Assembly: GCA_018109965.1 (NCBI GenBank)
Contig: JAGBFE010000066.1
Location: 1 to 7,201 of the forward strand
Reading direction: 5' to 3'
DNA from: Oscillospiraceae bacterium
GTDB lineage: Bacteria; Bacillota_A; Clostridia; Oscillospirales; Ruminococcaceae
Length of the DNA: 7,201 bases
Part shown: positions 1-7,201 of the stretch, piece after piece
Layout: each line of letters opens with the position of its first letter
Position numbering within the stretch: the stretch's first letter is position 1
Translations under genes and position numbers: made by a program
Notes under the pieces: generated by a model
Seen by the model: only the letters and a program-made list of their open reading frames with translations
Database searches by the model: none
Told to the model about the DNA's origin: nothing

Positions 1-530
1 AACTTGGCGGTCTTTTATCCGACGCACTGGCCGAAAGCCTTGGTCTTGATGTAATGCTGCTTGGTTCAGGCAGCGTGCGCACAGAGCAGATGGGCCCGCT
101 GGTTGTATATCAGGACCTTGTTGAATGTTTCCCTTACGACGATGCAACATATATGCTTACAGTTACAGGCGGACAGTTCAAGCGCATGATGCAATTTATG
201 CTGCGTGACGGTGTATGGAAGGGCGAACACTGCGAGTTCTATCAGCTTTCAAAACGAGTAAAAATTGTATATGACATACCAAACAGCAAAATTCTGGAAT
301 TTAAATTTGACGATGAAGACCTTGATGATGACAGACTGCTGCGCATAGGTTTACAGACGTTCCATTTAAACAATTTTACAGAGTTCTTCAATGTTCCTAT
401 TGCTGAAGTTGATGCAATCAAAAAACCTACTGTTGTAACCACATCTACAAGAGATGTTCTTGAAGAATATCTTGCAACACATCAGCACCTTGACCGCGAA
501 ATCGACGGCAGACTGACACTTATCAGATAA
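1..530 (+). CDS. 5'-nucleotidase / UshA-family protein, C-terminal part only (5' end outside window)
   Basis: The reading frame is open from the window edge (first full codon at position 3) to TAA at 528-530, giving 175 visible residues. They align without a gap to residues 314-488 of the next gene, and I count roughly 55% identity by eye. The segment is the family's C-terminal nucleotide-binding domain: an LGGLLSDAL helix, a GSGSVRTE loop that matches the substrate-binding Gly/Arg loop, a DLVECFPYDD segment, and the ending DGRLTLIR. The N-terminal metallophosphatase half, which would show catalytic residues and any signal peptide, is outside the window. Members of this family hydrolyse nucleoside 5'-phosphates, nucleotide sugars or cyclic nucleotides; the substrate cannot be read here. 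A 72-base gap with no clear terminator separates it from its paralogue, so the two may be co-transcribed. An ATG at position 54 is internal and not the real start. Confidence 0.88.
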   Translation, partial: LGGLLSDALAESLGLDVMLLGSGSVRTEQMGPLVVYQDLVECFPYDDATYMLTVTGGQFKRMMQFMLRDGVWKGEHCEFYQLSKRVKIVYDIPNSKILEFKFDDEDLDDDRLLRIGLQTFHLNNFTEFFNVPIAEVDAIKKPTVVTTSTRDVLEEYLATHQHLDREIDGRLTLIR

Positions 531-602: not shown

Positions 603-2069
603 ATGGACAGATACAAAAAACTCACACTTTTGCACTCCAACGATATGCACGGGGATTTTCTGGCAGAAGATGCTGACAACAGCCTTGTGGGCGGCGTAAG
701 TATGCTGTCGGGCTATGTTGACAAGGTAAGGCGTGAAGAAAAAAGCACCCTTTACTGCATTGCAGGGGATATGTTCCGCGGCTCGGTTATCGACAGCGAA
801 TTCCGCGGCATAAGCACCATAGAGATTATGAACGCCCTTGCACCTGATGTGGTGACCCTTGGCAACCACGAAACCGACTACGGCGTGGCACATCTGCTGT
901 TTCTTGAAAAATGCGCAAAGTTCCCCATCATCAATGCAAACCTGTACATAAAATCCAACTTTGCAAGGCTGTTCAGACCTCATATCGTAAAGGAAATTGA
1001 CGGTATGAAGATACTGTTTATCGGTATCATCACCCAAGCAGTTATGAAATCCACAAAAAATGACACTGCGGTGGGCAGCTTTTTAGATATATACGATGCA
1101 GCGGCAGAAATCGGGCGCATCTGCAACACCTACAACGCAACAGATATCGACCTGACAGTGCTGCTGACACATATCGGCTTTGAGGAAGACAAAGCCCTTG
1201 CTGCACAGCTTGACCCCGCCTGGGGCGCGGATGTCATCATCGGCGGTCACAGCCACACCTTTATCGAACAGCCTGCAGTGGTAAACAACATTCTTATCGT
1301 GCAGGCGGGCACAGGCACCGACATTATCGGCCGTTTTGACATTGTGGTGGACACAGCTGAAAACCGCGTGCACAGCTGGCAGTGGCAGGCAGTACCGATA
1401 AACAGTGCAAACTGCCCAAGGGATGAAGAAATCGAAACGGTGCTTGCATCCTATAAAAACCATACCGATGCAAAGTACAACCGTATCATCACCCGTATGG
1501 CACGCAGACTGACACACCCAGACCGATTCAGAGAAACCGAACTCGGTGGCCTGTTTGCAGATATTCTTGCACAAAGCCTTGGCCTTGATATAATGCTGGT
1601 GGTCAGCGGCAGCATCCGCACCGAAAGCATGGGGCCACTTGTGATGTACAAAGACCTTGTTGAAACTTTCCCGTACGACAGTGCCGTGTATCTGCTTAAA
1701 ATAAACGGTGCACAGTTAAAACGGATGATACTGTATATGTTACGGGATGAAATATGGCAGGGTGTGCACTCCAGCTTTTCACAGCTGTCGGGCAGACTTA
1801 AAGTGGTTTATGACATACCGCACAGCACAATGACCACCTTTGAGTTTGACGGCGTGCCGATAACAGACAAACAGCTGTTCACCATTGGCGTACAGCAGTA
1901 TCAGTACAGCAACTTCAAAAAAATATTTGATGTGGAACTTGACGAAATTGAGGCAAACGGCAAGGCAAGAATAGTTGCAACATCAATAACAGATGTGCTT
2001 GAAGAATATCTTGCTTCCCACGGGCTTATTGACCACAAAACCGACGGCAGACTGACCCTTGTCAGATAA
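603..2069 (+). CDS. Cytoplasmic UshA-like bifunctional metallophosphatase / 5'-nucleotidase
   Basis: This 488-residue protein has the two-domain UshA architecture. The N-terminal calcineurin-like metallophosphatase domain keeps every metal-site motif: NDMHG (D14, H16), GDMFRG (D56), GNHE (N88, H89), LLTHIG (H190) and GGHSH (H216, H218). The C-terminal 5'-nucleotidase domain starts near residue 290 and contains ETELGGLFADIL and the SGSIRTE loop (R339). Family members use two metal ions to cleave nucleotides, nucleotide sugars or 2',3'-cyclic nucleotides. The N-terminus (MDRYKKLTLLHS) goes straight into the first beta strand with no signal peptide. It is therefore probably cytosolic, like B. 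subtilis YunD and unlike periplasmic UshA. A role in nucleotide salvage or cleaning up cytosolic nucleotides is inferred. It sits 72 bases after its paralogue and 66 bases before the SPFH gene. The enzyme class is confident; the substrate is unknown. Confidence 0.93.
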   Translation: MDRYKKLTLLHSNDMHGDFLAEDADNSLVGGVSMLSGYVDKVRREEKSTLYCIAGDMFRGSVIDSEFRGISTIEIMNALAPDVVTLGNHETDYGVAHLLFLEKCAKFPIINANLYIKSNFARLFRPHIVKEIDGMKILFIGIITQAVMKSTKNDTAVGSFLDIYDAAAEIGRICNTYNATDIDLTVLLTHIGFEEDKALAAQLDPAWGADVIIGGHSHTFIEQPAVVNNILIVQAGTGTDIIGRFDIVVDTAENRVHSWQWQAVPINSANCPRDEEIETVLASYKNHTDAKYNRIITRMARRLTHPDRFRETELGGLFADILAQSLGLDIMLVVSGSIRTESMGPLVMYKDLVETFPYDSAVYLLKINGAQLKRMILYMLRDEIWQGVHSSFSQLSGRLKVVYDIPHSTMTTFEFDGVPITDKQLFTIGVQQYQYSNFKKIFDVELDEIEANGKARIVATSITDVLEEYLASHGLIDHKTDGRLTLVR

Positions 2070-2135: not shown

Positions 2136-3503
2136 ATGGGACTTATCAAAGCAGCATTAGGCTCAGCAGGCGGCGTACTGGCTGACCAGTGGAAAGACTA
2201 TTTTTATTGCGAATCACTTCCTGCAGATGTACTTATCAGCAAAGGCCACAAGAGAAATTCCGGCCGCAGCAGCAACACAAAAGGCAGTGACAACATCATC
2301 TCCAACGGCTCTGTAATCAACATCAACGAAGGTCAGGCCATGATTATAGTCGAAAGCGGCAAAATCGTTGACCTGTGTGCAGAACCGGGTGAATACACAT
2401 ACGACACATCAACCGAACCGTCCCTTTTCCAGGGCGACCTCAAAGGCAACATCTCTGCAGTGTTTGACCAGATCGGCAAGCGTTTTACTTTTGGCGGCGA
2501 AGCACCAAAAGACCAGAGAATATATTTCTTCAACACAAAAGAGGTTATGGGCAATAAATACGGAACACCAAGCCCTGTGCCATTCCGCGTTGTTGACCAG
2601 CGCGCAGGCATCGATATCGACATTGGTCTGCGCTGTTTCGGCGAATACAGCTTCAAGGTTGTAAACCCGATGCTTCTTTACAAAAACGTAGCAGGCAATG
2701 TGGAACAGGATTTCACACGCCAGCAGCTTGAAAGCCAGATGAGAACCGAACTTCTCACAGCTTTGCAGCCTGCATTTTCAAGAATTTCTGCAATGGGCAT
2801 CCGCTACTCCGCAGTGCCGGGCCACACAAAAGAACTTGCAGACATCCTGCGCGAAGAACTCGCACCAAGCTGGGGCGACAGAATGGGCATTGAAATTGAA
2901 AAAATCGGTATGAGCTCCATCAAGGCAAGTGAAGAAGATGAAGCAATGCTTAAAGATATGCAGCGTGCAGCAGCATACACAGATCCTAATCTCGCAATGG
3001 CATACACAGTTGCAAGCCGCGGCAAGGCAATGCAGGATGCTGCAAACAACGCAGCAGGCGCAGCAACAGGCTTTATGGGCCTTGGCATGATGAACGGCAT
3101 GGGTAACGACGGCACAATGCAGACACTGTATCAGATGCAGCAGAACCAGCAGGCACAGCAGGCTGTTATCAACCCTGCGCATCAGGCAGCAGTACAGAAC
3201 GGCCCTGGTATGACACCTCCGTCACAGCCTGCCCCAAACAGCTGGAAATGCAGCTGCGGTGCTGTTAACACAGGTAAATTCTGTGCTGAATGCGGCAGCC
3301 CAAAACCTGCAGAAGAAGGCTGGACATGTGCTTGCGGTGCTGTAAACAAAGGCAAGTTCTGCCCTGAATGCGGTGCAAAAAAACCTGCAGGTGTTCCGGT
3401 ATACAAATGTGACAAATGCGGCTGGGAACCTGAAAAAGGCGTAACACCACCAAAATTCTGTCCTGAATGCGGCGACAGATTTGACGACGGCGACATCATT
3501 TAA
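2136..3503 (+). CDS. ydjI: SPFH/band-7 domain protein with three C-terminal zinc ribbons (YdjI-like)
   Basis: The 455 residues fall into four parts. The first is an N-terminal amphipathic stretch (MGLIKAALGSAGGVLADQWK) typical of the YdjI group. The second is an SPFH/stomatin-like domain of about residues 36-270, containing GSVININEGQ and EPGEYTYD. The third is an Ala/Gln/Met-rich segment (about 275-365). The fourth is three Cys4 modules: C372/C374/C383/C386, C398/C400/C409/C412 and C425/C428/C442/C445. The first two use CxC knuckles and are near-duplicates; the third is rubredoxin-like (CDKCGW...CPECG). There is no clear membrane-spanning helix, so binding to the inner face of the membrane is probably through the N-terminus or partners. 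In B. subtilis, YdjI is recruited by YdjG/YdjH and links PspA to the membrane. Start ATG 2136 follows AAAGGAG (2123-2129). Relatives of YdjG and YdjH lie downstream, which supports the call. Confidence 0.9.
   Translation: MGLIKAALGSAGGVLADQWKDYFYCESLPADVLISKGHKRNSGRSSNTKGSDNIISNGSVININEGQAMIIVESGKIVDLCAEPGEYTYDTSTEPSLFQGDLKGNISAVFDQIGKRFTFGGEAPKDQRIYFFNTKEVMGNKYGTPSPVPFRVVDQRAGIDIDIGLRCFGEYSFKVVNPMLLYKNVAGNVEQDFTRQQLESQMRTELLTALQPAFSRISAMGIRYSAVPGHTKELADILREELAPSWGDRMGIEIEKIGMSSIKASEEDEAMLKDMQRAAAYTDPNLAMAYTVASRGKAMQDAANNAAGAATGFMGLGMMNGMGNDGTMQTLYQMQQNQQAQQAVINPAHQAAVQNGPGMTPPSQPAPNSWKCSCGAVNTGKFCAECGSPKPAEEGWTCACGAVNKGKFCPECGAKKPAGVPVYKCDKCGWEPEKGVTPPKFCPECGDRFDDGDII
3243..3389 (+). repeat. 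In-gene tandem duplication of a zinc-ribbon module
   Basis: Two 69-base units (3243-3311 and 3321-3389), separated by 9 bases, encode 23-residue zinc ribbons with 17 identical residues. The shared pattern is W-x-C-x-CGAVN-x-GKFC-x-ECG followed by KPA. Differences are spread over first, second and third codon positions, so the duplication is old rather than a recent copy. Confidence 0.8.
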
Positions 3504-3550
3504 TACTCGCTTTATCCTTCTTTAATCATAAAGAGATAAATATTTTTGTT

Positions 3551-3608
3551 GTCTGATAAAGCTATGCTGTATGCGGCAACGGACTGCGTGCGGCATAGCC
3601 TGTCAGAC
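3551..3608 (+). other. Long imperfect RNA hairpin in the leader of the DUF4428 gene
   Basis: GTCTGA (3551-3556) pairs with TCAGAC (3603-3608). T3557-G3602 and A3558-T3601 extend this lower stem, followed by a 2x1 internal loop. A 14-pair upper stem follows (3561-3574 with 3586-3592 and 3593-3599), closing an 11-base loop (3575-3585). In all there are about 22 pairs, four of them G-T. No T-run follows on either strand, so it does not look like an intrinsic terminator. It ends 8 bases before the Shine-Dalgarno sequence. CTTTATC (3510-3516) could instead pair with GATAAAG (3555-3561) and open the base of the hairpin. It could be an RNA-processing or stability element, a regulatory leader, or a remnant of a palindromic repeat. 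Confidence 0.65.
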
Positions 3609-3617
3609 TTATCCACA
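3609..3617 (+). promoter_or_regulatory. Perfect match to the DnaA-box consensus TTATCCACA
   Basis: TTATCCACA starts on the base after the hairpin and ends on the first base of the Shine-Dalgarno sequence AAGGAGG (3617-3623). It matches the high-affinity DnaA box exactly. Only one box is present and no replication gene is nearby, so this is not an origin. A lone box could be a DnaA regulatory site or chance: about 5% for one 9-mer in this length on both strands, assuming equal base frequencies. Confidence 0.3.
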
Positions 3618-3628
3618 AGGAGGCAACT

Positions 3629-4408
3629 ATGGGACTTTTTGATAAAATTTTTGAAAAGAAAATATGCTCAATCTGCGGCGGCGAAATTGGTCTTTTGGGC
3701 AACAGAAAACTGGAAGACGGCAACTGCTGCAAAACCTGTGCAGCAAAGCTTTCGCCATTCTTCAGCGACAGACGCTCCAGCACAGTGGAAGAAATCAAAC
3801 AACAGCTGGAATACCGCGAAGCAAACAAAGCTGAAGTTGCAAAATTCAACACAACCCGTGTTATCGGCGGCGACAACACAAAAATCTACATTGATGAAAA
3901 CGCACGCAGATTTGTGGTTACATCTTCACGCAACCTGGCTGATGCAAACCCGGACGTTATCGATTTTGCAATGGTAACAGGCTGCGAAATGGATATTGAC
4001 GAAGACCGCAGCGAAGAAAAACGCAAAGACAACGAAGGCAACTATGTAAGTTATATGCCTCCACGTTTTTCCTGCAGTTATGACTTCAGCTTTACAATAT
4101 TTGTAAACCACCCTTATTTCAACGAAATCAACTTCCGTCTCAACTCATCATCTGTCGAAACAACACCGGAAGGCGGTGTGCCTGCAGCACGCATCCCTGA
4201 CCCGAGAACAAACATTGAATACAGAGAATACGAACAGATGGGCAACGACATCAAAGCAATTCTCACACAGGCACGTCAGGACGCAAGAGATGAAATTGCT
4301 GCAGCAAACGCACCAAAAACTGCTGCAACCTGCCCATACTGCGGTGCAACAACAATTCCTGACGCAAATGGCTGCTGCGAATTCTGCGGTGGCGCAATGA
4401 ACGGATAA
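3629..4408 (+). CDS. DUF4428-type protein with N- and C-terminal zinc ribbons
   Basis: This 259-residue protein has no signal peptide or membrane helix. The N-terminus MGLFDKIFEKK is a short amphipathic lead into a DUF4428-like zinc ribbon: CSICGG (C13, C16) and C34-K-T-C37, with the GLLGNRKLEDG linker typical of that family. A central beta-rich domain follows (about residues 65-190: TRVIGGDNTKIYIDE, NPDVIDF, then an alternating FSCSYDFSFTIFVN stretch). It resembles the PH-like domains often found behind DUF4428, though that assignment is an inference. A helical Ala/Gln/Arg segment leads to a second ribbon, CPYCG...C250-E-F-C253 (C235, C238). The function is unknown. Cytosolic zinc-binding adaptors of this type often sit beside SPFH/YdjI-like genes. 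ATG 3629 has AAGGAGG 5 bases upstream. The next gene starts 21 bases after its stop, so they are probably co-transcribed. Confidence 0.82.
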   Translation: MGLFDKIFEKKICSICGGEIGLLGNRKLEDGNCCKTCAAKLSPFFSDRRSSTVEEIKQQLEYREANKAEVAKFNTTRVIGGDNTKIYIDENARRFVVTSSRNLADANPDVIDFAMVTGCEMDIDEDRSEEKRKDNEGNYVSYMPPRFSCSYDFSFTIFVNHPYFNEINFRLNSSSVETTPEGGVPAARIPDPRTNIEYREYEQMGNDIKAILTQARQDARDEIAAANAPKTAATCPYCGATTIPDANGCCEFCGGAMNG

Positions 4409-4429
4409 AACGAACCGGGGTGAATTACA

Positions 4430-5197
4430 GTGAAACTCAACAAAAAAATATTACTGCTTACAGCAATTTTAGCGCTTGCTTTCGCTGTAAGCGCCTGTGG
4501 CAGCACACAACCGCCTGCCGACAGCAACCCGACACAAAGCCAGTCCCAGCAACAGCAGGACGAAACTGAAAGCGCTGTGACTGAAACGGAAAGCACAGAA
4601 AAAGAAACTGACAGCACCGGTGATGAATCAGAATCAAAACAGGAAACTGTCAAGGACAAAACTGATTTTGATGCAGAAACCGCAGTCACTGCTCAGGAAA
4701 CTGACAACGGAGTAAAATACACATTCAATGCTCTGCCACAGAATGCAGATGATATCCGAGCCCTCATGGAAATACATCCACTCAGTGACAGACACAATAC
4801 AACCGCTTTCTTTATGGCAAGTCTTGTGCGGTATATTGAAGATACCGACGACGGCCTTGCAATGATTGATGTTCTCAAAGGCCCGCAGCCTTTAAGCGAC
4901 ACTGAAAAGGCATTTATCAAAGAGCGTTTCAGCGACAAAAAATATCTGCCAAAATCATATTTTGAAGGCGCTTTGCCTGAAAACAACTACGAACCCGATG
5001 CTCCGTGGACAATTGTTGTTTCTGATGAAGCTGTATCAGCTCCTGAGGGCTACAGCTATACAACAGTGTCCAGCGGCGGCGCAGACAGTCCAAGACGCGT
5101 ATGTCTGCGCATCAAAGGTGATGACCACTACCTTTGGGAGTATAACGGTGTACTGCTGGGAATACGTCTTCCTGCCGAAGAAGATCCGTGGTTATAA
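4430..5197 (+). CDS. Lipoprotein with acidic linker and conserved C-terminal domain of unknown function
   Basis: The start is GTG 4430, with GGGGTGA (4417-4423) as a moderate ribosome site. Residues 1-22 form a lipoprotein signal peptide (KKILLLTAILALAFAVSA) ending in the lipobox VSAC, so C23 is the likely lipidated residue and the protein is exported and anchored on the outer face of the membrane. Residues 24-92 are a disordered linker rich in Gln, Ser, Thr and Glu. Residues about 97-254 form a compact domain with clear landmarks: YTFNALP, GPQPLSDTEKAFIKERF, YLPKSYFEGALPENNY, SGGADSPR, YLWEY and a final AEEDPWL. I recall this pattern from a clostridial family that I believe Pfam lists as DUF6935; the number is from memory. 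No enzymatic motif is visible. It is probably co-transcribed with the DUF4428 gene and ends just before a strong terminator. Confidence 0.87.
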   Translation: MKLNKKILLLTAILALAFAVSACGSTQPPADSNPTQSQSQQQQDETESAVTETESTEKETDSTGDESESKQETVKDKTDFDAETAVTAQETDNGVKYTFNALPQNADDIRALMEIHPLSDRHNTTAFFMASLVRYIEDTDDGLAMIDVLKGPQPLSDTEKAFIKERFSDKKYLPKSYFEGALPENNYEPDAPWTIVVSDEAVSAPEGYSYTTVSSGGADSPRRVCLRIKGDDHYLWEYNGVLLGIRLPAEEDPWL

Positions 5198-5201
5198 AAA
5201 C

Positions 5202-5227
5202 AAAAAGGGGGCTTCGGCTCCCTTTTT
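5202..5227 (+). terminator. Strong intrinsic terminator with UUCG tetraloop
   Basis: The left arm AAAAAGGGGGC (5202-5212) pairs with GCTCCCTTTTT (5217-5227) across a TTCG loop closed by C-G, the very stable cUUCGg fold. All 11 positions pair, with one G-T wobble. The right arm ends in five T, and the left arm begins with five A, so it could also act on the opposite strand. It lies 4 bases after the lipoprotein stop and separates the upstream genes from the YdjG-like gene. Confidence 0.9.
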
Positions 5228-5272
5228 ATGATTTGAAAACAATAAACTTTATATATAAAGGAGGTTGACTGA

Positions 5273-6391
5273 ATGGCAACTCAGGTAACCAACTATCAAT
5301 GTCCTGCCTGCACAGGCCCGCTGCATTTTGTGGGCGAAAGCGGCCTGCTGGAATGTGACTACTGCCAGAGCCGCTATGCAATAGAGGAAATTGACAAGGA
5401 ATATGCTGCCAAAAACAAACAGGCAGAAGAAAATTTTGAAAAGGCACAGCAGAATGCCGAGCGTGAACAGACCTGGTGGGATATGTCGGGTCTCAGCGAC
5501 CAGTGGGGTGCGGACGGTGAAAAAATCAAAGCCTATTCCTGTCCGTCCTGCGCAGCAGAAATCATCTGCGATAACACCACAGCGGCAACAAGCTGTCCGT
5601 ACTGCGGCAACCCTACAGTTGTACCTGGGCAGTTTGGCGGAGATTTGAAACCGGACTATGTTATTCCGTTTAAACTCAGCCACGAAGACGCAAAAAAAGC
5701 CCTTAAATCCTACTATAAAGGCAAAAAATTCCTGCCAAAGGAATTTACCGCCAAAAACAAAATAAGCGAAATCAAGGGCGTGTATGTTCCGTTCTGGCTG
5801 TTTGACTGTGTTGCCGATGCTGACATCACCTTTGACGGCACCACTGCGATAACCACAAAACAGGGTGACTACAATGTGACCACCACATCACATTACGACA
5901 TTTACCGCAGCGGCCGCGTGCCGTTTAACAACATCCCTGTTGACGCATCCAAAAACATGCCCGATACACATATGGATGCCATCGAGCCTTTTGATTTCAG
6001 ACAGATGAAACCGTTTTCAATGTCCTATCTGCCGGGCTTTTATGCTGAACGATACGGCCAGAGTGCACAGGAAAGCATTGAAAGGGCAGAAACCCGTGCC
6101 GAAAACACCACTATCGAAACATTGCGCGGCGACATTGTGGGCTTTGCCGGCTGCACCATAAAGGACAAAAACATATATTTGGAACGCGGCAAGGTAAAAT
6201 ACGCACTGCTGCCAGTATATATGCTGACAACCAAATACAACGGGCAGGATTATCTGTTTGCAATGAACGGCCAGAGCGGCAAGTTCATTGGCAATCTGCC
6301 TGTGGACAAAAAGAAATACTGGACTTATTTTCTCGGCATAGCCGCATCCGTCACAGCTGTGGTGGGCACTGCGATGATGCTGCTCTTGTAA
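5273..6391 (+). CDS. ydjG: Double zinc-ribbon, tail-anchored membrane protein (YdjG-like)
   Basis: The 372-residue protein opens with two zinc ribbons: C10-P-A-C13 with C28-D-Y-C31, and C90-P-S-C93 with C108-P-Y-C111. Between them is a charged, probably coiled-coil stretch (about 38-66). A long domain follows (about 120-340) with the family pattern DYVIPFKLSHEDAKKAL, KGKKFLPKEF and GVYVPFWLFD. The only hydrophobic helix is at the extreme C-terminus (about 352-372), preceded by KKK, so the bulk of the protein faces the cytosol. Database annotation often mislabels such proteins as primosomal protein N' or TFIIB-type zinc ribbon; no helicase motif is present. In B. subtilis, YdjG works with YdjH to hold YdjI and PspA at the membrane. 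ATG 5273 has AAAGGAGGT (5257-5265) 7 bases upstream. The TPM gene follows after 13 bases, so G and H form an operon. Confidence 0.9.
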   Translation: MATQVTNYQCPACTGPLHFVGESGLLECDYCQSRYAIEEIDKEYAAKNKQAEENFEKAQQNAEREQTWWDMSGLSDQWGADGEKIKAYSCPSCAAEIICDNTTAATSCPYCGNPTVVPGQFGGDLKPDYVIPFKLSHEDAKKALKSYYKGKKFLPKEFTAKNKISEIKGVYVPFWLFDCVADADITFDGTTAITTKQGDYNVTTTSHYDIYRSGRVPFNNIPVDASKNMPDTHMDAIEPFDFRQMKPFSMSYLPGFYAERYGQSAQESIERAETRAENTTIETLRGDIVGFAGCTIKDKNIYLERGKVKYALLPVYMLTTKYNGQDYLFAMNGQSGKFIGNLPVDKKKYWTYFLGIAASVTAVVGTAMMLLL

Positions 6392-6404
6392 AGGAGGGCA
6401 AACC

Positions 6405-7201
6405 ATGAAAAACAAACTTTTCAGACTGATATCGCTCTCTGTTGTGCTTGCTTTAGCGGTAAGCATCTTTACGGCAGGAGTAAATGCCGAAACTGCACAG
6501 AGACAGTATGTTTATGACCCTGTATATCTGCTGACAGACAGCGAATATTCCGAACTCAACGCAATGGCAGCCGAAACAAGCGAAAAATACGGCTGTGCAG
6601 TACACTTTGTGGTTACCGATGACCCATCTGTAAACTATGACAATATCCAGCTTTATTCTGAAGATATGTACCTTGAATCCCCTGCCCTTGGCTATGGCGA
6701 GGGCAAGGACGGCGTAATGCTGGTACTTTGCACTGCTGACCGCTGCTACTGGCTGCTGGCCTATGGCGAAAAGGGCAACTATGCCTTTACCGACTATGCA
6801 AAGGATTGGATGAGCGAACATTTTGTGGACGAATTTGGCGATGATGACTGGTATGGCGGCTTTAAAGATTACATAACTGACTGCGACTATATCCTTGGCG
6901 AAGCTGCAAAAGGCACACCTGTGGATATTGACAATGATATAGGTGTGGAAGCCTACGGCTTTGCTCTTGTGGCAGGACTTATCATTGCACTTATCGTGTG
7001 TTCCGTTTTCAAGTCACAGATGAAGACCGCAAATATCGCCACAAGGGCCACAGATTATCTTGATAAAGCAAATGTGGATATATTGTTCCGCAATCAGCTG
7101 TTCAGATACTCCACAGTTACAAGAACAAAAATAGAAACCAACAATTCCTCCTCATCCGGTGGCGGCACAACGGTAAACAGCCGCGGCTTCTCCGGCAAAG
7201 G
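6405..7201 (+). CDS. ydjH: TPM-domain membrane protein (YdjH-like), 3' end outside window
   Basis: The frame runs open from ATG 6405 to the window end, 265 complete codons. AAAGGAGG (6390-6397) overlaps the stop of the preceding gene. Residues 1-28 form a signal peptide (LFRLISLSVVLALAVS, probable cleavage VNA-E). Residues about 36-168 are a TPM domain, the fold shared with YgcG and the thylakoid lumen 18.3 kDa protein: YDPVYLLTDSEYSELN, GYGEGKDGVMLVL, then DWYGGFKDYI. A single membrane helix (about 183-202) is followed by KSQMK, which predicts the TPM domain outside and the tail inside. The tail becomes Ser/Gly-rich (SSSSGGG, RGFSGKG), as is usual near the end of this family, so probably little is missing. 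TPM domains have been called phosphatases, but this is not established for this subgroup. In B. subtilis, YdjH partners YdjG. Confidence 0.88.
   Translation, partial: MKNKLFRLISLSVVLALAVSIFTAGVNAETAQRQYVYDPVYLLTDSEYSELNAMAAETSEKYGCAVHFVVTDDPSVNYDNIQLYSEDMYLESPALGYGEGKDGVMLVLCTADRCYWLLAYGEKGNYAFTDYAKDWMSEHFVDEFGDDDWYGGFKDYITDCDYILGEAAKGTPVDIDNDIGVEAYGFALVAGLIIALIVCSVFKSQMKTANIATRATDYLDKANVDILFRNQLFRYSTVTRTKIETNNSSSSGGGTTVNSRGFSGK

Follow-up and report, generated by a model that had tools for sequence, protein, structure and literature searches.

What could a membrane module of YdjG, YdjH and an SPFH protein serve where no PspA is encoded beside it? This question is raised by a stretch of 7,201 nucleotides from an Oscillospiraceae bacterium (assembly GCA_018109965.1, contig JAGBFE010000066.1), here called the window, on which genes for an SPFH/band-7 protein, a DUF4428 protein and a lipoprotein precede those for a YdjG-like and a YdjH-like protein (G and H in the following, with I standing for the SPFH gene). 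PspA has been described as being anchored by YdjG, YdjH and YdjI. A sequence-only reading had taken the window locus for an expanded and rearranged version of the Bacillus subtilis order pspA-G-H-I that possibly works with a different effector. The five open reading frames were found at the place and in the order that it had given, i.e., SPFH, DUF4428, lipoprotein, a hairpin, YdjG-like and YdjH-like (Table 1), and Pfam detected no PspA among the window proteins as far as the window ends. The strongest point of our analysis is a sharp split of the SPFH proteins against a continuous YdjG family, with PspA standing beside one SPFH type and beside the other only at locus L015.

Two SPFH types beside one YdjG family

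From its sequence features, the window SPFH protein carries three zinc ribbons and no hydrophobic helix. Compared with the SPFH protein of the PspA-G-H-I operon L221, its BLASTP match was confined to zinc ribbons, and profile comparison showed that both types are homologous (hhalign 99.7%, E 7e-26, 210 columns). Median identity was 62% within the window type, 59% within the PspA-linked type and 22% between the two, as calculated from 21 window-type and 9 PspA-linked loci that were picked by hand, H being present in 6 of the latter 9. A tree of 129 SPFH proteins, which was built by a quick method and flagged for long branches, placed 12 of 13 PspA-linked sequences in one clade of 16 rows together with four others (Shimodaira–Hasegawa-like approximate likelihood ratio test, SH-aLRT, 100). 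The window-type clade of 88 rows (SH-aLRT 96) held 85 window-type, two other and one PspA-linked sequence, the last from L015. On the sequence evidence, the window SPFH is thus a subfamily separate from the PspA-linked SPFH, the latter type being defined by synteny in Bacilli genomes, with B. subtilis YdjI assigned to it from gene order only.

In contrast to the SPFH proteins, G showed no comparable gap: identity was 42% within the window type, 32% within the PspA-linked type and 33% between them. G matched its counterpart in L221 with 34% identity over 367 residues (BLASTP E 4e-76), and it gave no Pfam match above the cut-off. Its CxxC pairs start at residues 10/28 and 90/108, and a hydrophobic helix spans residues 354–372. 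H, with a signal helix, a TPM domain and a second helix at 184–202, matched the H of L221 weakly (20% identity, BLASTP E 7e-5). Together with the Pfam score of the TPM domain (Table 1), these matches uphold the earlier placement of both proteins in the YdjG and YdjH families. Two further YdjH-like proteins, P0270 and P0285, have tandem TPM domains, of which the first resembles the DUF6935-linked TPM domain of the fusion P0177.

Presence and absence of PspA

We read two sets of neighbourhoods. The first comprised the best 80 of at least 584 loci, picked for closeness to the window; for 50 of them, the whole genome was screened for PspA. The second was a class sample of 147 genomes with G001, a relative of the window, at its centre. 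Of its PF13421 neighbourhoods, 81 were read, and 49 loci in 47 genomes were called window-type by a custom profile at a 380-bit cut; the profiles were iterated on the same loci that they then scored. Further PF13421 proteins of the class sample (L192–L211) stand elsewhere in the SPFH tree, most of them without a recognised G, H or PspA nearby. SPFH relatives were also seen in nine unannotated phage records, every one below 60% identity.

PspA was missing from all 49 window-type class loci, whether the same strand within 6.5 kb or either strand of the fetched stretch was considered. Genome-wide, PspA occurred in 9 of the 50 genomes with the closest SPFH relatives (8 over the cut-off) and in 5 of the 47 class genomes with a window-type SPFH (3 over the cut-off). 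At E 1e-3, it was hence not found in 41 of 50 and in 42 of 47 genomes, whose assembly completeness is not established. Among the window's relatives, G001 and G002 had none and G003 had one. The absence of PspA next door, claimed from the window alone, extends to most of the sampled genomes with this SPFH type. In Bacilli, PspA and the short SPFH type were 1.3–2.1 kb apart at all 10 loci, which had been chosen for PspA beside SPFH and one of which is cut by a contig end. Genome G026 has both SPFH types, and there PspA adjoins the short type only, the window-type locus being without it.

Gene order and recurrence of the two extra genes

Among the best 80 loci, the commonest arrangement was I-G-H (23), followed by I alone (16), I-G (12), I-DUF4428-G-H (4) and I-DUF4428-DUF6935-G-H (3), with at most three loci for every other order. 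The 49 class loci showed I alone (18), I-G-H (15), G-H-I (5), I-G (4), DUF4428-I (3) and four further orders once each. As loci with a recognised G most often read I-G-H and have no PspA in both sets, and the SPFH protein belongs to another subfamily, we abandon the idea of a module rearranged from the Bacillus order. That it is expanded holds for a subset: the window's own five-gene order is confined to three close relatives among the 80 loci and occurs once in the class sample, in G001, a genome already counted among those three.

The additional genes recur beside this SPFH type, as had been supposed. Around window-type SPFH genes of the best 80 loci, DUF4428 was found on 20 and DUF6935, the domain of the window lipoprotein, on 14; on the same strand and within 3 kb, they were present at 16 and 11, respectively, of the 58 loci whose flanks are long enough. 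In the class sample, 4 of 18 DUF4428 places over the cut-off lay within 5 kb of a listed SPFH gene (0.04 expected), and 3 of 16 when G001 was left out, two of these being near-copies. The SPFH rows of G074 and G118 are identical and count as one event, which weakens the P value of the DUF4428 linkage. For DUF6935, 2 of 16 places lay near a listed SPFH gene. The linkage count took 52 SPFH places, of which three (L143, L154 and L170) are not window-type; the size of one genome went into it as 2.0 Mb in place of 1.7 Mb, without consequence since that genome has no SPFH. The DUF4428 and DUF6935 genes are recurrent but optional extras.

Properties of the DUF4428 and DUF6935 proteins

The DUF4428 protein was modelled as a zinc ribbon, a PH-like domain and a second ribbon, the PH/PTB fold of the middle domain being tentative. 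This model agrees with the cytosolic adaptor role that had been suggested for it. Fusions of DUF4428 with DUF6935 made up 7 of 120 among the matches listed. A 400-residue DUF4428 protein at L146:8960-10159 carries a long M/N/G/Q-rich repeat ahead of its C-terminal ribbon.

The lipoprotein domain, left unnamed before, is DUF6935 (PF22043). The lipobox LAFAVSAC at residues 16–23, with the predicted processing at Cys 23, is the same in the nearest relatives (P0121, 99% identical). The DUF6935 domain was modelled with a predicted local distance difference test score of about 98; its fold is tentatively NTF2-like, and Foldseek gave no solved relative at E 0.001. In a tree of 150 DUF6935 rows, the window protein falls in the lipoprotein clade, and 79 rows, about half, are cytosolic or fused behind DUF4428. 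The tree implies about five changes of membrane side, two of which are made by P0193 and P0287, and its bootstrap is unsettled. Near-copies had been thinned from 175 to 150, five unsure rows dropped, two "longN" and one "tm" rows left out, and eight rows, P0193 and P0287 among them, set to "lipo" by eye. At locus L005, SPFH, DUF4428, TelA and XpaC share a cluster with two DUF6935 proteins, one cytosolic and the other a lipoprotein. In P0177, a YdjH-type TPM domain is fused to DUF6935, and the proposed meeting of the lipoprotein with an external TPM domain gains support from this one fusion cluster.

Layout of the window and its surroundings

The features of the window are collected in Table 1. 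Folding of the region 3500–3632, which spans the gap from SPFH to DUF4428, gave −46 kcal/mol (z −5.4), and L001 and L003 have hairpins in the equivalent gap, as does L002 with a weaker one; an exact-seed repeat finder gave no inverted repeat at 3551–3608. The hairpin at 5202–5227, absent from the output of the mechanical terminator scan, has counterparts in L001, L002 and L003. The two hairpins inside the operon could raise the SPFH protein above its neighbours and set G and H apart.

Table 1. Features of the window with their positions and supporting scores
Feature	Positions	Strand	Evidence
5'-Nucleotidase, C-terminal part, cut by window start	3..530	+	PF02872 40.3 bits
UshA-like 5'-nucleotidase, no visible signal peptide, upstream neighbour	603..2069	+	PF02872 55.9 bits, PF00149 38.3 bits
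SPFH/band-7 protein, 455 residues, three C-terminal zinc ribbons, window-type	2136..3503	+	Band_7_1 PF13421 77.5 bits (cut-off 24)
Predicted hairpin, SPFH-DUF4428 gap	3551..3608	+	energy folding
DUF4428 protein, 259 residues, N-terminal zinc ribbon, PH-like middle domain (model), C-terminal zinc ribbon	3629..4408	+	PF14471 59.6 bits (cut-off 27.8)
Lipoprotein, 255 residues, lipobox Cys 23, low-complexity linker, DUF6935 at residues 100-249	4430..5197	+	PF22043 127.9 bits (cut-off 27)
Terminator-like hairpin 5' of G	5202..5227	+	-15.9 kcal/mol, z -3.7
YdjG-like protein, 372 residues, two zinc ribbons, central domain, C-terminal helix	5273..6391	+	BLASTP E 4e-76
YdjH-like protein, signal helix, TPM domain, second helix, tail, truncated by window end	6405..7201	+	TPM PF04536 59.0 bits (cut-off 22.1)

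Upstream of the SPFH gene, the window holds tandem 5'-nucleotidases without a visible signal peptide (3–2069). Such a tandem pair is also present in L136, and a nucleotidase homologue lies 25–51 bp upstream of SPFH in L001–L004. In the closest relative (L136:1207-4211), H is followed downstream by genes for a further lipoprotein, which gave no Pfam match, for TelA (408 bits) and for XpaC/PF10112 (103 bits). The cluster of G001 runs on past H through such a lipoprotein gene to TelA and XpaC; farther off, the opposite strand carries an MscS-like channel gene. On the SPFH strand of L005 are H, two LP2-type lipoproteins, two nucleotidases, TelA and XpaC; one open reading frame of this locus resembles an MscS-like channel gene, by eye only.

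Rfam gave no match in the window at gathering scores. A defence system was considered and rejected, PADLOC giving only LmuB (E 0.004) on G, and so was a mobile element, the plasmid collection holding no near match to the module.

A possible PspA-independent platform and its alternatives

Our favoured reading, to which we give a little less than even belief, is a PspA-independent platform of G, H and SPFH, to which DUF6935 would add a subunit outside, at the TPM domain, and the DUF4428 protein a PH/ribbon adaptor inside. The YdjG-like and YdjH-like membrane proteins would form a receptor. By analogy with B. subtilis, as described in PMC8581546, the soluble SPFH protein may assemble as a scaffold on the cytosolic side of G and H, and its changed subfamily would go with the missing PspA. 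Inside the cell, the DUF4428 protein might tie lipid or protein partners to the scaffold, as its modelled fold and the adjacency of its gene suggest. Outside, the DUF6935 lipoprotein could contact the TPM domain of H and report on or protect the outer face, for which the lipobox and one fusion speak. The output would probably be membrane stabilisation under envelope stress, with TelA and XpaC, whose genes follow the module in close relatives, as candidate effectors. One may go further and assume that in Clostridia a PspA-free SPFH surveillance complex on the YdjG and YdjH receptor carries matching subunits of the NTF2-like DUF6935 family on both membrane faces, as an outer lipoprotein at the TPM domain and as an inner copy beside SPFH, with the copies reporting across the membrane; this extension we regard as distinctly improbable.

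Several observations weigh against the platform. H departs from the pattern of G, with 27% and 42% identity within the window and PspA-linked types and 22% between them. The G tree, also built by the quick method, is largely sorted by SPFH type (3 changes for the window type versus 18.1 in shuffles), so G follows its SPFH protein and is not freely exchanged. Both extra genes are rare in the class sample, with DUF4428 at 5 and DUF6935 at 2 of the 49 window-type loci, and without G001 only 1 of 14 DUF6935 places lies near a listed SPFH gene (0.05 expected, P 0.05). No recognised partner stands near SPFH in 18 of the 49 class loci; since only 34 of the 49 have more than 3 kb of flank on both sides (26 more than 6 kb), such solitary SPFH genes partly reflect contig ends. 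The hairpin before G may uncouple G and H from the first three genes. The TPM-DUF6935 fusion is one cluster of four sequences, with a TPM domain below the Pfam cut-off and no visible signal peptide. G003, which shares the order of the five genes at its locus L003, encodes PspA on another contig at a locus without G or H, and in L015 it lies 63 bp from the window-type SPFH gene, the sole PspA case among the best 80 loci. Finally, PspA is scarce throughout the class: it was found in 23 of 147 genomes and in 18 of the 100 without a window-type SPFH (16 over the cut-off), so genomes with the window type are only slightly poorer in it. An effector other than PspA, as first proposed, is no more than compatible with our data. 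As an observation on L015 itself, DUF6935, the window-type SPFH and PspA are adjacent at L015:4698-7770, and the PspA tail matched the SPFH profile, probably through a zinc ribbon.

The locus could instead encode an ordinary YdjGHI system that uses a PspA encoded elsewhere in the genome, the extra genes merely modulating it. The distant PspA of G003 and the PspA kept in L015 fit this explanation, and Ravi et al. (PMC11237479) suggest that related band-7 operons may use PspA encoded elsewhere. The many genomes in which PspA was not detected, and G026 with its PspA beside the short type only, argue against it, and we consider it somewhat unlikely. Alternatively, nucleotidases, SPFH, lipoproteins, TelA and XpaC may together form an antimicrobial or anion stress island in which the five genes do not encode one complex. 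The nucleotidase pair, the LP2-type lipoproteins, TelA and XpaC are indeed common to G001 and L005, and disruption of the TelA-like lmo1967 in Listeria raised sensitivity to nisin and tellurite, according to PMC12791056. TelA or XpaC occurs, however, on only 3 of the best 80 loci, fewer than G, H, DUF4428 or DUF6935, which makes such an island unlikely in our view.

Still less probable, indeed very much so, is a DUF6935 lipoprotein that acts as an independent surface or cell-wall binding protein and sits in the operon by chance. Such a role would suit the 14 of 16 DUF6935 places of the class sample that lie away from a window-type SPFH, and the form P0260 with its signal-like start and fn3-like repeats. 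In contrast, the DUF6935 gene lies at most 138 bp from SPFH in 9 of the 80 loci (one overlapping as called), although these nine are cytosolic or unsure and not lipoproteins, and 245 bp from it in L152. The fusions of DUF6935 with DUF4428 and with a TPM domain likewise speak against this reading.

Since the G-H-SPFH module is common in mostly PspA-less genomes, the PspA-independent platform may serve a purpose of its own. That the SPFH proteins divide so sharply while the YdjG family is continuous suggests that SPFH is the part that fits the effector. DUF4428 and DUF6935, both little-studied families, would gain a testable place in envelope biology. In the open-licence literature, we found no report of a PspA-free YdjGH-SPFH module, and nothing on DUF6935, on a TPM domain with SPFH or on the TelA and XpaC families with SPFH.

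Comparison with known systems

The PspA-YdjG-YdjH-YdjI system of B. subtilis, as described in PMC8581546, PMC9239133 and PMC11237479, likewise comprises a G protein with two ribbons and a helix, an H protein with a TPM domain and helices, and a soluble, ribbon-tailed SPFH protein, all encoded together. In contrast, the window operon has no PspA, has the relative order I-G-H and encodes an SPFH protein of another subfamily, and it adds the DUF4428 and DUF6935 partners, to which close relatives add TelA and XpaC downstream. In G001, L003 and L005, the module is followed downstream by both genes of the TelA-XpaC pair of tellurite and nisin tolerance; the pair is located outside the window and is not a usual neighbour of the window-type SPFH. 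The C-terminal domain of the window lipoprotein is a clear member of Pfam DUF6935, whereas about half of the tree rows of this family are not lipoproteins. DUF4428 is also common to the window module and the SNIPE homologues, which, according to PMC13190303, have DUF4428 or PH at the N-terminus where membrane helices are lacking. Compared with SNIPE, the window has by Pfam only DUF4428, and by PADLOC only the LmuB match on G.

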